DNA of 64,000 nt from Amnibacterium sp. Its GTDB lineage: Bacteria > Actinomycetota > Actinomycetes > Actinomycetales > Microbacteriaceae. Each line of letters opens with the position of its first letter. Positions within the stretch are counted from its first letter, which is position 1. Of this stretch, positions 1 through 5,182 are shown in pieces. The notes under the pieces are model-generated. The model made no database searches and was not told the origin of the DNA. It saw nothing but the letters and a program-made list of their open reading frames with translations. The position numbers and the translations under genes are program-made. The stretch is taken from assembly GCF_025463795.1 (NCBI RefSeq), contig NZ_JAODBE010000070.1:1-64000 (forward strand). The letters are read 5' to 3'.

Positions 1-1160
1 CAGACGTCGCCGAACCCGTCGAGCACATTGCCGCGGAGGTACCCGAGGTCCATCTCGATCCCCAGTCCCGGCTCGCCTGTGACGTGGAGGCGTCCGCCGG
101 AGTTGTCCAGCGGGTGCGTGAGGAACCGCTCGTAGGCGCTGAGATCGTAGGCGGCCGTCTCCATCCGGTAGAAGTTCGGCACGGTCAGCATCACCTGCGC
201 GGCCGCCATGAGGTTCACGGGCCCGCTCGCATCGTGCGGCGTGATCGGCACGAAGTACGTCTCGGCCAGCGATGCGATCTTCCTCATCTCCGAGATACCG
301 CCGGTCCAGGTGACATCCGGCATGACGTACTCAGCCAGACCGTCGTGCAGCACCTCGGCGAAGTCCCATCGGGTGTGCATGCGCTCGCCGACCGCGATCG
401 GCACCGACACCTGCTCCCTCACCTGCCGCAGCGCGCCCAGGCTCTCCGGCGGCACCGGCTCCTCGAACCAGTCGATGCAACCCGCTTCCTGGAGCGCGTT
501 GCAGAGCCGCACCGCGGTCGGGACGTCGAAGCGGGCGTGAGCGTCGATCAGCAGCTCCACGTCCGGGCCGATCACCTCCCGGATCGCAGCAGTCAGCTCC
601 ACCGCCGTCCGCTCGCCCGCTCGGCTCAGGCCACCGTCCAGGTAGCGATCGTTCGCGGGTCGCGCACCGTCCAGATGCGGAAACGGGTCCACCTTTATGG
701 CGTCGTGCCCCGACTCCACGATCGCTCTCAGCTCCTGCTCCAGGCCGTCTCGCGTGACGAAGCGGGACTGATCGGGGTGGGTGTAGATCGCCAGCTCGTC
801 GCGGACTGCGCCGCCCAGCAGCGTTGCGACCGACACACCCAGACGTTTGCCCTGCAGGTCCCACAGCGCGATGTCGATCGCGCTCGTCACCAGGGTCGCG
901 ACGCCGCGGCTCCCCGCGTAGGTGAATGCGCGGAACACCTTGTTCCAGGTGTCCTCGATGCGGCGGGGGTCGTCGCCGAGCACGAGGTCCTCGACCTGCC
1001 GCAACGTCGCCGCCACCGCGCGGTCGGCTGCGTGCGTCGTCGTGGTGACCTCGCCCCATCCCGACAAGCCCTCGTCGGTCCGCACCTCCACGAAGAGGTA
1101 CTCGCCCCAGAACGTGCCAGGTGCGCGCACCAGCCAGGGCACCACCGCAGTGATCCTCAC
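1..1160 (-). CDS. Mandelate racemase/muconate lactonizing enzyme (enolase superfamily) family protein, partial at window edge
   Basis: Reverse-strand reading from GTG at 1160 gives VRITAVVPWLVRAPGTFWGEYLFVEVRTDEG...LIDAHARFDVPTAVRLCNALQEAGCIDWFEEPVPPES...ITPHDASGPVNL, typical of the MR/MLE superfamily. It runs off the left edge, so the ORF track omits it. Confidence 0.88.
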   Translation of the reverse strand, partial: MRITAVVPWLVRAPGTFWGEYLFVEVRTDEGLSGWGEVTTTTHAADRAVAATLRQVEDLVLGDDPRRIEDTWNKVFRAFTYAGSRGVATLVTSAIDIALWDLQGKRLGVSVATLLGGAVRDELAIYTHPDQSRFVTRDGLEQELRAIVESGHDAIKVDPFPHLDGARPANDRYLDGGLSRAGERTAVELTAAIREVIGPDVELLIDAHARFDVPTAVRLCNALQEAGCIDWFEEPVPPESLGALRQVREQVSVPIAVGERMHTRWDFAEVLHDGLAEYVMPDVTWTGGISEMRKIASLAETYFVPITPHDASGPVNLMAAAQVMLTVPNFYRMETAAYDLSAYERFLTHPLDNSGGRLHVTGEPGLGIEMDLGYLRGNVLDGFGDV

Positions 1161-1930
1161 GAGGCACTCCTTCGCCGCTCCGCATGCTGTCCACGCCACG
1201 CGTCGTACTCGGGGCGAGCGGCGTCCGAGAGCGGGTAGTAGCGCTGCAGGTCGCCGCCCTCCGCCAACCGGGTGCGCGAGAACTCCTCCCAGTCCGCATG
1301 CTCGCCGCCCGCGTTCGCGACCGCCTGGGCGAGGCCGATGGGCACCACGATCGCGCCGTCGTCGTCCGCCACGATGATGTCTCCAGGCACGACAGTGGTT
1401 CCACCGCATGCGATCGTCGTGTTCACGGCGTGTGGGACGACGTTCGTCTGCGAATGGAAGTTCGGCGTGGCGCCGCGGACCCACAGGCCCAGCGGCAGCC
1501 TGCTCGCGGCCCCGAAGTCGCGGATGCAGCCGTCGACGACGACTCCTATCCCGCCGCGGCCGACGAAGTACGTCAGCATCATCTCGCCGAATATGCCGCT
1601 GGTCATGTCCCCCCGCGCGTCCACGACGACGACGTCGCCGGGGCGCGTGTGGTACAGCACGTGCCGGTGCAGCTGACGCTCCGGGTCGGCGTACTCGTCC
1701 ACCGGGTAGAGGTCCTCCCGCTTCGGCAAGCACTGCAGGGTGAGCGCCGGACCCGCCACGACCGCGCCCGGCGTGCGTGGCACGGGACCGGTGATCGCCG
1801 CACTACGGACACCCAAGCGGTTCAGCTCTCCGCTGATCGTGGCGCTGCCGATCGCACGCAGACGATGGACCAGCTCTGCGGGCGGGCGAACGATGTCCCG
1901 GGTCTCGATCGCGGCTGCATGCTCGGGCAC
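1157..1930 (-). CDS. RraA-like family protein (aldolase/decarboxylase-type, dimethylmenaquinone methyltransferase-like fold)
   Basis: GDVVVVDARGDMTSGIFGEMMLTYFVGRGGIGVVVDGCIRD and PGDIIVADDDGAIVVP are RraA-family signatures; overlaps the next gene by 4 bp. Confidence 0.88.
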   Translation of the reverse strand: MPEHAAAIETRDIVRPPAELVHRLRAIGSATISGELNRLGVRSAAITGPVPRTPGAVVAGPALTLQCLPKREDLYPVDEYADPERQLHRHVLYHTRPGDVVVVDARGDMTSGIFGEMMLTYFVGRGGIGVVVDGCIRDFGAASRLPLGLWVRGATPNFHSQTNVVPHAVNTTIACGGTTVVPGDIIVADDDGAIVVPIGLAQAVANAGGEHADWEEFSRTRLAEGGDLQRYYPLSDAARPEYDAWRGQHAERRRSAS

Positions 1931-2205: not shown

Positions 2206-3378
2206 CTACAGCACTCCGGCAGGGATCGGGACGGGCGCGGGTTCGCCGACGTAGCGCGCGGATGGTCGGATGATCTTGGGGTCGCGGGCTTGCTCGAGGA
2301 TGTTCGCGGCCCAGCCGAGCGCACGGGCACAGGCGAACGTCGAGGTGAACAGCTCGGGTGGGATGCCGCAGATCTCCATGACGATCGCGGCGTACCACTC
2401 GACGTTGGCGTGGAGGTGCCGGCCGGGCTTGAGCTCGGCGAGAAGACCGGTGACGCGCTCTTCGACCTGGACGGCGAACCGGACTCGAGGGCTGTCGAAC
2501 CGGAGCGCGACCTCCTTCATCAAGGCGGAACGGGGGTCCTCCGTCCGGTACACGGGATGGCCGAACCCCATGATCCGCTTGCCGTCCGAGATCTGTGCGG
2601 TGACCCAGGCGTCGATGTTGTCCGGGTGACCGATCGCGTCCAGGGTCTCGAGCGCCCGGCTCGGCGCCCCGCCGTGGAGCGGTCCCGAGAGCGCACCGAG
2701 CGCGCCGAGGAAGCATGAGGTCGCATCTGCTCCTGTCGACGCGATGACGCGGGCGGTGAAGGTCGAGGCGTTGAACCCATGGTCGATGGCTGCGACCAGG
2801 TATGCCGAGAGCGCGGCGACATGCTCGTCCGCGGCCTCGGATCCGGTGAGCATGAAGAGGTAGTCGGCCACGTAGCCGAGATCACCCCGCGGGGCGACCG
2901 CCGGCAGGCCTCTCCGCAGGCGCCAGAGGGCGGCGGTGAGGGTCGGGAACTCGGCGGCCACCGCGATCACCGCGTCTCGCCGCTCGCCGGGCTCCTGGTC
3001 GTACAGCGGTGGCGTCTTGCGTTGCGCTCCGTCGAGCGCGAGCGCCGTCTTCAGCAGGGCGATGGGATCCCCGTCTGAAGCCGACCGGGCGAGGCCCGGT
3101 AGATGGGAGCTCAGGCTGGACGACAACGCGGAGGCGGAGCGCACCGAATCGCTGAAGGGATGCATGTGACCGGGCGCGAGCAACTCGCCGTCGAGCAGCA
3201 GGCCCCACACCTGCTCGATCGTGCACTGCCGGGCGAGGTCGGTGGCGGAGTACTGGCGGTAGTGGAAGAAGCCCTCCTGACCGCGGACGTCGCTGAGCTC
3301 CGTCTCTGTGACGACCACATTGGTCAGACCGCGCGGGACCTCGATCGGGGTGTTGTCCATCCGGTCCACGAGCCGCAT
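2206..3378 (-). CDS. Citrate synthase/2-methylcitrate synthase family protein
   Basis: LSGPLHGGAPSRALE, GFGHPVYRTEDPR and FTSTFACARALGWAANILEQ are citrate synthase motifs. The usual NVDFYSG segment reads NVEWYAA. Confidence 0.88.
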   Translation of the reverse strand: MRLVDRMDNTPIEVPRGLTNVVVTETELSDVRGQEGFFHYRQYSATDLARQCTIEQVWGLLLDGELLAPGHMHPFSDSVRSASALSSSLSSHLPGLARSASDGDPIALLKTALALDGAQRKTPPLYDQEPGERRDAVIAVAAEFPTLTAALWRLRRGLPAVAPRGDLGYVADYLFMLTGSEAADEHVAALSAYLVAAIDHGFNASTFTARVIASTGADATSCFLGALGALSGPLHGGAPSRALETLDAIGHPDNIDAWVTAQISDGKRIMGFGHPVYRTEDPRSALMKEVALRFDSPRVRFAVQVEERVTGLLAELKPGRHLHANVEWYAAIVMEICGIPPELFTSTFACARALGWAANILEQARDPKIIRPSARYVGEPAPVPIPAGVL

Positions 3379-3417
3379 TGGAGCCTCCTTCCACGATGGG
3401 AGCGAAGCCCAGCAGAT

Positions 3418-3457
3418 ATGTTGATCAGGAGCAACCGGATATTGATCCGATCAACAT
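3418..3457. promoter_or_regulatory. Candidate operator between the divergent citrate synthase genes (three TTGATC half-sites)
   Basis: ATGTTGATC at 3418-3426 and its exact inverse GATCAACAT at 3449-3457; the internal palindrome TTGATC-C-GATCAA is at 3442-3454. Confidence 0.55.
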
Positions 3458-3469
3458 GCGAGGGCCACG

Positions 3470-4702
3470 ATGAGCGATGCGCTGCCGAGGCTGACGACGG
3501 CTCAAGCAGCGGCGCGCCTCGGAGTGAAGCGGGCGACGCTGTACGCCTACGTGGCGCGCGGCCTCATCGCCAGCGTGCGTGGCGAGGCCGGTGGATCGAC
3601 GTTCGATCCGCTGGAGATCGAGTCGTTCGCAGCGAACGGCTCCGCGAGGCGCGCCCGCGCGCCCGGCCAGGCGATGCCCGGACGCCCGCTGATGGTGCTC
3701 GATTGGGATCTCACCCTGCTCACCCAGGACGCGCTCCACTTCCGAGGCGTCCCGGCGGCGGAGTTGGCCCGCCGTCCGTTCGAGGAGGCAGTGACCTTCT
3801 TCTGGAGCGGAGGGGTCCCTCCCGAGCCTCTCGGCGCGGCGGAGACACAACGTCGGCCCAAGGCATCGCCCGACACCGACGCGCTCCTCGGCACCGAGCG
3901 CAGCGCGCTGGATCGACTGATCGTGGCGACGGTGCTGGCGGCCACGCAGGACGCCCATCGCCAGGAGCTCGAGCGTGACGCCGTCTTGCGTGCCTCCCGG
4001 GGACTCCTCAAACGCTTCGCGGAGACGTTGAACCGGCCGGCGTCGCGGACCGCGGCCGGGACGATCGCCGACAGCCTGTGGCTGAGCATCGCCGGCCGGG
4101 CGCCAGAGCCGGGCGACATCGCGTTGCTCAACGCGGCGCTGGTGCTCTGCATCGACCACGACCTCGCCGCCTCGACCATGGCAGCGCGGGTGGCCGCGTC
4201 GGCCCGCGCGGACCTGTACGGGTGCGTCATCGCTGCCCTCGGCGCCTTGAGCGGCACTCTGCACGGGTCGGTCAGCATCGCTGCGTGGGAGCTGATCGCC
4301 GAGACGATGCGGACCGGGCGCCCGGCGGCCGCCCTGTCGCGGCAGGTCGCGGCAGGCCGAGGAACGCCCGGGTTCGGGCACCTCGTCTACACGGGGGAGG
4401 ATCCGCGCGCCACAGCGTTGTTCGAGCGGATGCGGGAGCTGTCCCACTACCGGGACGTGATGCAGGCGGTCGATCAGTTGCGTGGAGTCGTCCGAGCGCG
4501 ACTCCACCGCGACGCCAACGTCGATCTCGCCCTGGCGGCACTGAGCGTCGGTGCGGGAGGGACGCATGGCGCAGCCCAGGCCGTCTTCGCGATCGGCAGG
4601 ACGGCCGGGTGGACAGCCCACGTTCTCGACGAGTACTCGAAGCGGCCGCTCCGCCTTCGACCTGAGTCCCGCTACCGGGGCGTCCCGCCGGAGTCGACCT
4701 GA
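3470..4702 (+). CDS. Citrate synthase-like protein with N-terminal MerR/excisionase-type helix-turn-helix
   Basis: N-terminus LTTAQAAARLGVKRATLYAYVARGLIASVRGEAGGSTFDPLEIESF (HTH) followed by LSGTLHGSVSIAAWE, GFGHLVYTGEDPRA and RTAGWTAHVLDEY (citrate synthase). Confidence 0.85.
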   Translation: MSDALPRLTTAQAAARLGVKRATLYAYVARGLIASVRGEAGGSTFDPLEIESFAANGSARRARAPGQAMPGRPLMVLDWDLTLLTQDALHFRGVPAAELARRPFEEAVTFFWSGGVPPEPLGAAETQRRPKASPDTDALLGTERSALDRLIVATVLAATQDAHRQELERDAVLRASRGLLKRFAETLNRPASRTAAGTIADSLWLSIAGRAPEPGDIALLNAALVLCIDHDLAASTMAARVAASARADLYGCVIAALGALSGTLHGSVSIAAWELIAETMRTGRPAAALSRQVAAGRGTPGFGHLVYTGEDPRATALFERMRELSHYRDVMQAVDQLRGVVRARLHRDANVDLALAALSVGAGGTHGAAQAVFAIGRTAGWTAHVLDEYSKRPLRLRPESRYRGVPPEST

Positions 4703-4746
4703 AGGGCGTCGGGGCAAGGGCTCCGGCTACCCCGCCCTCGAGCCGA

Positions 4747-5182
4747 TCACCGCCCCGATCCGCGCTGCAGCGGCCGTGGCGGGAGACCCGCATCGGATGG
4801 ATCCGGGGGCCGGGATCCGTTCGAGGCGGGGACATCGTGGTAGCCGGCCGAGCGGTACAGAGCTTCGTCCGGGTGGGCGTTCGACTCGTCCCGAACTGGT
4901 GCCCACCTGAACGAGCCCATCGTCCTCGAGCGCGCGCAGGACGCGGATGAGGTGTCCGGGATCGAGGCCCGATCGCGCCCCCAGGTCGCGCACGTCGACG
5001 CTCCGGTCACCGAACTCCCGAGCCACCCGAGCGCGGCCGAGCGGACGGGAGCGTGCCGGAAATGCACGCCGAAGGGCGCGGATCCTCTGGATCAGCGCCC
5101 GGTTGAAGCGACACACCACGGCCACCGTGGCGTCCTGCATCATCGGAGCCGAGTCAGGGAATGCGGCCAGCGGGGGCGCCAT
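4747..5182 (-). pseudogene. Remnant of a MarR-GNAT (HTH regulator/N-acetyltransferase) gene
   Basis: ORF 5182->4727 carries a MarR N-terminus (DATVAVVCRFNRALIQRIRAL...DVRDLGARSGLDPGHLIRVLRALEDDGLVQVGTS). A different reverse frame then gives a GNAT-like tail (ALYRSAGYHDVPASN), with the middle missing. Confidence 0.55.

Follow-up and report, generated by a model that had tools for sequence, protein, structure and literature searches.

Regulators of the MocR/GntR type, such as PdxR and GabR, join a winged helix-turn-helix (HTH) to a complete metabolic enzyme fold that acts as the sensor, and they are often encoded divergently to the biosynthetic gene that they control. A divergent arrangement is also found in B. 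subtilis, where the minor CitA-type citrate synthase is under the control of CitR, a dedicated regulator transcribed in the opposite direction. To our knowledge, dedicated sensors for entry into the TCA cycle have rarely been described.

A further pair has been reported in S. coelicolor: according to PMC12323332, SCO5831 and SCO5832 (citA3/citA4) are two putative citrate synthase genes whose shared intergenic region is bound by MtrA. Here, we describe a divergent pair from Amnibacterium sp. in which one citrate synthase-like protein carries an N-terminal HTH. Such pairs recur in several bacterial phyla and share a conserved site in the intergenic DNA, which suggests that a metabolic enzyme was turned into the sensor of a small gene switch not described before.

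A citrate synthase-like protein with an N-terminal HTH and its divergent partner

The window (the whole stretch of 64,000 nucleotides analysed) encodes the HTH-citrate synthase fusion, called HTH-CS hereafter, and a CitA-like citrate synthase on the opposite strand (Table 1). The first-pass annotation had placed both genes exactly, in coordinates as well as in reading frame. The fusion that it described is recovered by Pfam, with both matches above cut-off: HTH_17 at residues 8-45 (29.0 bits, cut-off 27) and Citrate_synt, PF00285, at residues 75-392 (175.5 bits, gathering cut-off 27). The MerR and MerR_1 models score just below their cut-offs (24.3 bits for 28.2 and 19.7 bits for 21.6, respectively). 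Across the family, PF00285 is found in 108/108 aligned HTH-CS members and HTH_17 in 105/108.

Table 1. Features of the divergent pair in the window, and loci with an alternative partner gene
Feature	Position in the window, or loci	Strand	Basis or remark
HTH-CS gene (HTH-citrate synthase fusion, 410 aa)	3470..4702	+	ORF, Pfam, AlphaFold2, clade
Winged HTH, MerR/HTH_17-like, residues 8-57	3491..3640	+	Pfam, AlphaFold2, conservation
Flexible linker between winged HTH and citrate synthase body, residues 58-74	3641..3691	+	low pLDDT
Citrate synthase body, residues 75-392	3692..4645	+	PF00285, Foldseek, conserved ligand-site residues
His265 (LHG; E. coli His264)	4262..4264	+	His in 112/114 family members
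His304 (GFGH; E. coli His305)	4379..4381	+	Gln/Met/Gly in 14/114 relatives
Asp352 (NVD; E. coli Asp362)	4523..4525	+	invariant, 114/114
CitA-like (type II) citrate synthase gene, 390 aa, divergent partner, proposed target	2206..3378	-	ORF, PF00285
Glu327 (NVEWYAA) at usual catalytic Asp position, clade signature	2398..2400	-	Glu in 83/83 partners
Core of proposed operator, TTGATCCGATCAA	3442..3454	.	sole TTGATNNNATCAA occurrence in 3.28 Mb genome
Extended imperfect palindrome, CGGATATTGATC-C-GATCAACATGCG	3436..3460	.	corresponds to RTCAAYRTTGAT...ATCAAY in relatives
Third half-site, ATGTTGATC	3418..3426	.	21 bp from second direct copy
HMGL-like partner, actinomycete type	L063, L060, L070, L071, L074, L077, L080, L101, L103	divergent to HTH-CS	
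HMGL-like partner, other phyla	L068, L076, L082, L087, L089	divergent to HTH-CS	

An AlphaFold2 model of HTH-CS, built from the 108-sequence alignment, has a mean pLDDT of 90.7 and a pTM of 0.82. Structure prediction had been named as the check on whether the N-terminal segment is an HTH, and the model gives a confident winged HTH at residues 10-57 (pLDDT about 94), with helices at 10-17, 21-29 and 47-57 and a strand at 43-45. The linker is disordered (about 58-75; pLDDT below 50 at 61-65 and 67-70). The body adopts a citrate synthase fold, for which the top structural matches in Foldseek are citrate and 2-methylcitrate synthases, and the LHG, GFGH and NVD positions are kept as originally noted, with H265, H304 and D352 in place. 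The genome encodes two further canonical citrate synthases elsewhere, so neither protein of the pair need be the housekeeping enzyme.

The partner protein matches Citrate_synt over the full length (357/357, 335 bits); like that of HTH-CS, this match is well beyond chance level. Its best NCBIfam match is PRK12350, narrowly under the cut-off (327.9 bits for 332), and its closest PDB match is B. subtilis CitA (2c6x), which reads NVEFYAA. The first-pass annotation had singled out a Glu at the usual catalytic Asp position of this protein. The substitution is present, as aligning the active sites confirmed together with the three catalytic residues of HTH-CS, but it is no oddity: Glu occupies the NVE motif in 83/83 divergent partners alignable at that position and in 2c6x as well. 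It is a signature of the CitA-type group and not a lesion. Since no member of the partner clade departs from Glu here, the idea that the change marks an inactive enzyme was discarded.

Around the pair, positions 3-1930 (minus strand) hold two genes: one, galactonate-dehydratase-like (MR_MLE), is truncated at the contig edge, and the other encodes an RraA-like aldolase. They lie downstream of the CitA-like gene with a 276-bp gap between. At 4727-5182 (minus strand), a short ORF contains a weak MarR-like stretch below the Pfam cut-off. Its C-terminal part seems to be out of frame, and it is possibly a decayed gene.

Spread of the family and its partner genes

Relatives of HTH-CS are found in 5/59 other sampled genomes, and in 5/5 an opposite-strand CitA-like homologue adjoins. 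A collection-wide scan found at least 522 relatives, the best 80 of which were analysed, and a phylum sample has relatives in 40/397 genomes at E <= 1e-60. The hosts include Actinomycetota, for which the first-pass annotation had already mentioned such proteins, together with Acidobacteria, Myxococcota, Alphaproteobacteria, Anaerolineae, Verrucomicrobiota, Bacteroidota and one Deinococcus plasmid. In RefSeq and other public records, HTH-CS proteins are listed under the name citrate synthase.

In 88/115 loci, the gene next to HTH-CS encodes a CitA-like synthase and is transcribed divergently; this rate is a lower bound because 1.5-kb flanks at some loci could hide partners. The loci share descent, so all counts of loci are phylogenetically non-independent. 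In the tree, HTH-CS proteins form one clade (support 1.0) and the CitA-like partners another (0.94); this separation led us to reject a recent tandem duplication as the origin of the pair. Distances among HTH-CS proteins and among their partners correlate (r = 0.85), a value that carries no evidential weight because species relatedness alone can yield such a correlation.

In 16 of the 26 loci where no CitA-like partner was found, an HMGL-like (PF00682) synthase gene takes the same place. These partners belong to the homocitrate/isopropylmalate/Re-citrate superfamily and are of two distinct types (Table 1). The HMGL-like synthases have a fold unrelated to that of citrate synthase and carry out the same kind of condensation of an acyl-CoA with a 2-oxo acid. 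Re-citrate synthase, a member of this superfamily, frequently carries the wrong annotation of homocitrate synthase (PMC12016533); the second type may comprise Re-citrate synthases that have gone unrecognised. The swap of the putative target enzyme for an unrelated synthase with a similar condensation points to what is controlled.

Other neighbours vary. On plasmid At of Agrobacterium fabrum C58 (L152), the pair adjoins siderophore genes (FecI/FecR-type regulators and a TonB receptor), and on a Tsukamurella plasmid (L153) it likewise adjoins siderophore genes (GNAT genes and a siderophore-binding protein). From this context, the pair may in some hosts help to supply citrate for siderophores. 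In L040, the divergent neighbour of the HTH-CS gene encodes a flavoprotein resembling succinate dehydrogenase/fumarate reductase, and a TTGATCNGATCAA-type site occurs twice nearby. In Pseudovibrio (L086), a TRAP-type dicarboxylate transporter gene set adjoins the HTH-CS gene.

An operator-like site between the divergent genes

In the relatives, the gap between the paired genes contains a conserved operator-like site, RTCAAYRTTGAT, with a third half-site after it. The candidate site GTCAAYRTTGATCSGATCAAYAT was drawn from six Microbacteriaceae-type intergenic regions and then tried on held-out loci. The consensus is RTCAAYRTTGATY, with the third half-site usually 4-7 bases on. Allowing up to one mismatch, TCAAYRTTGA is found in 79/81 held-out divergent regions and in 23/26 partnerless loci, compared to means of 2.05 and 0.70, respectively, in dinucleotide shuffles. 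In a separate collection (Agrobacterium, Tsukamurella, Deinococcus and Azospirillum), 4/4 loci have exactly one intergenic site per ~8 kb.

The site also follows the HTH-CS gene. Upstream of CitA-type genes, the motif is present in 10/11 cases with an HTH-CS neighbour compared to 0/19 without (Fisher p = 3.7e-7, ignoring shared descent), the single failure being the window itself. When other genomes were searched with the full pattern (up to one mismatch), 7/8 matched in one place only, namely at the pair; in two of these seven, that single place matched on both strands. The eighth genome had no match to the longer pattern. HTH-CS proteins have, in short, a conserved operator-like site in their own divergent region and hardly any, or none, elsewhere in the genome.

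Towards the partner gene, one arm of the relatives' operator doubles as a putative TTGAY -35 box. A -10-like hexamer lies at a spacer of 18 or 19 in 50/84 loci, whereas most other spacings give 0-5. Spacers of 11-12 form a second peak (22 matches), which reflects an additional half-site. In L006 and L007, which were read by eye, the -10 hexamer stands 6 bases before the ATG, and this position suggests a leaderless mRNA. On the other side, the operator abuts or precedes the HTH-CS start.

The window itself carries a rearranged version of the site, in which the right-hand dyad TTGATCCGATCAA is intact and the palindrome's left arm has eroded. The exact core form of the window is found in 25/81 held-out divergent loci compared to 0.1 in shuffles. 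The third half-site is a perfect inverted repeat of 3449-3457, and several other Microbacteriaceae-type loci have a half-site at a similar place. There is no exact TCAAYRTTGA in the window's genome; upstream of the CitA gene there, the closest match differs at 3 positions. With the eroded arm and the missing exact consensus, the window is therefore less regular in this respect than its relatives are. A promoter and terminator scan of 3300-3550 found no sigma-70-like promoter and no terminator.

A proposed regulator and its alternatives

The first-pass annotation had ventured that HTH-CS might sense a metabolite and regulate its neighbour. This idea has comparative support from the pairing, the intergenic motif, its dependence on HTH-CS, its near-single occurrence in the genome and the conservation of the HTH. 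We propose that HTH-CS is a dedicated, local and probably autoregulatory one-component regulator with a citrate synthase fold as its sensor, and we give this reading a probability of about 75%. The irregular site of the window, the negative promoter scan there and the intact catalytic residues of the window's HTH-CS count against it.

In the proposed mechanism, the MerR-like winged HTH would bind half-sites (3418-3426, 3439-3447 and 3449-3457) within the 91 bp that separate the divergent genes (3379-3469). The citrate synthase body would dimerise and bind a ligand of the oxaloacetate/citrate type, perhaps along with an acyl-CoA; occupancy of the ligand site would be coupled to DNA binding. HTH-CS would thereby control the divergent CitA-like synthase gene together with its own gene. 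We infer the DNA binding, the identity of the ligand and the allostery from sequence comparison. The position of the operator in relatives, over the partner's putative -35 box and at the 5′ end of HTH-CS, slightly favours repression that is relieved or modified by the ligand. This geometry would fit a regulator that acts on its own gene and on the partner, more likely as a repressor, although it could also be an activator overlapping the -35 box.

Alternatively, HTH-CS could be an active citrate or 2-methylcitrate synthase with DNA-binding ability, in which turnover, through substrate loading, would determine promoter occupancy as in PutA or BirA. In favour of this alternative, the fold matches catalytic citrate and methylcitrate synthases, and the catalytic His-His-Asp set is intact in 99/114 members, the window protein included, which may thus still be catalytic. 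Against it, the GFGH His (H305) is Gln, Met or Gly in 14/114, mostly in Microbacteriaceae-type relatives of the window protein. Ala replaces the Asn of DHxxN in 86/114, and the basic positions that follow GFGH (HRVYK), which we take to be CoA contacts, are often lost, with R in 24/114 and K or R in 38/114. Ligand residues are kept, by contrast: equivalents of E. coli H229, R314, D362, R387 and R407 are present in at least 113/114 HTH-CS proteins, and that of H264 is His in 112/114. This pattern would fit a pocket for an oxaloacetate/citrate-type ligand with a relaxed need for turnover, and we consider a DNA-binding enzyme of this kind unlikely.

That HTH-CS is simply an enzyme, with the HTH as a relic or oligomerisation module and the site owned by another regulator such as MtrA, seems to us very improbable. 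The MtrA binding reported between SCO5831 and SCO5832 speaks for such an owner, but the motif is unlike the published MtrA consensus, a GTAACC repeat. Moreover, the site tracks the HTH-CS gene across phyla even where a CitA partner is lacking, and it is missing at CitA genes without HTH-CS. The HTH helices are also the most conserved segment of the protein, with 71-72% mean pairwise identity compared to 44-50% for the synthase core; the comparison includes a 28-sequence subset that avoids the bias of the collection-wide scan, for which HTH peptides served as bait. We hold it equally far-fetched that the motif is merely a promoter element (a TTGAC -35 box) shared by the divergent promoters. Its left arm can indeed be read as a -35 box of the partner gene, yet such a box explains neither the 12-bp palindrome with its third half-site, nor the once-per-genome occurrence, nor the absence at CitA genes without HTH-CS.

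On balance, we think it probable that HTH-CS proteins are a widespread, undescribed transcription factor family in several phyla, in which the citrate synthase fold senses oxaloacetate/citrate (or an acyl-CoA with an oxo acid) and controls an adjoining condensing synthase, mostly CitA-type and in others HMGL-type, possibly of the Re-citrate or homocitrate kind. If so, the pair would be a compact, testable switch whose DNA site is known and whose sensor fold is well understood in structure; it would be usable as a biosensor part and would help to explain when bacteria run a second citrate synthase. Many proteins annotated as citrate synthases would then be regulators, which would affect metabolic reconstructions.

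Comparison with described regulators

We found no description of an HTH-citrate synthase fusion, of its operator or of its regulatory role in the open-licence literature. SCO5831/SCO5832 is probably the same pair as the one described here, since Streptomyces loci (L018, L019) and Streptomyces-like loci (L093-L098) show the pair. In the accessible part of PMC12323332, both proteins are treated as citrate synthases and neither an HTH nor an operator is described for them, whereas we propose that HTH-CS is a regulator.

The N-terminal winged HTH resembles that of the MerR family (SoxR, CueR), and its best PDB match is SoxR, at a weak E value of 0.11. The coiled-coil dimerisation helix of MerR regulators is not seen in the HTH-CS model, where a disordered linker leads into the citrate synthase fold. 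The operators also differ in position: MerR operators lie inside the 19-20 bp spacer between the -35 and -10 boxes, whereas in HTH-CS relatives an arm of the palindrome is itself the putative -35 box. With no coiled coil and a different operator position, HTH-CS is not a standard MerR protein. CitR, in turn, is LysR-type and lacks any citrate synthase domain, unlike HTH-CS.

The closest likeness is to the MocR regulators, which are one-component regulators with an enzyme fold as the sensor, as proposed for HTH-CS. The modules themselves are different: MocR proteins combine a GntR-type HTH with a fold-type I aminotransferase, and HTH-CS combines a MerR/HTH_17-like HTH with a citrate synthase.
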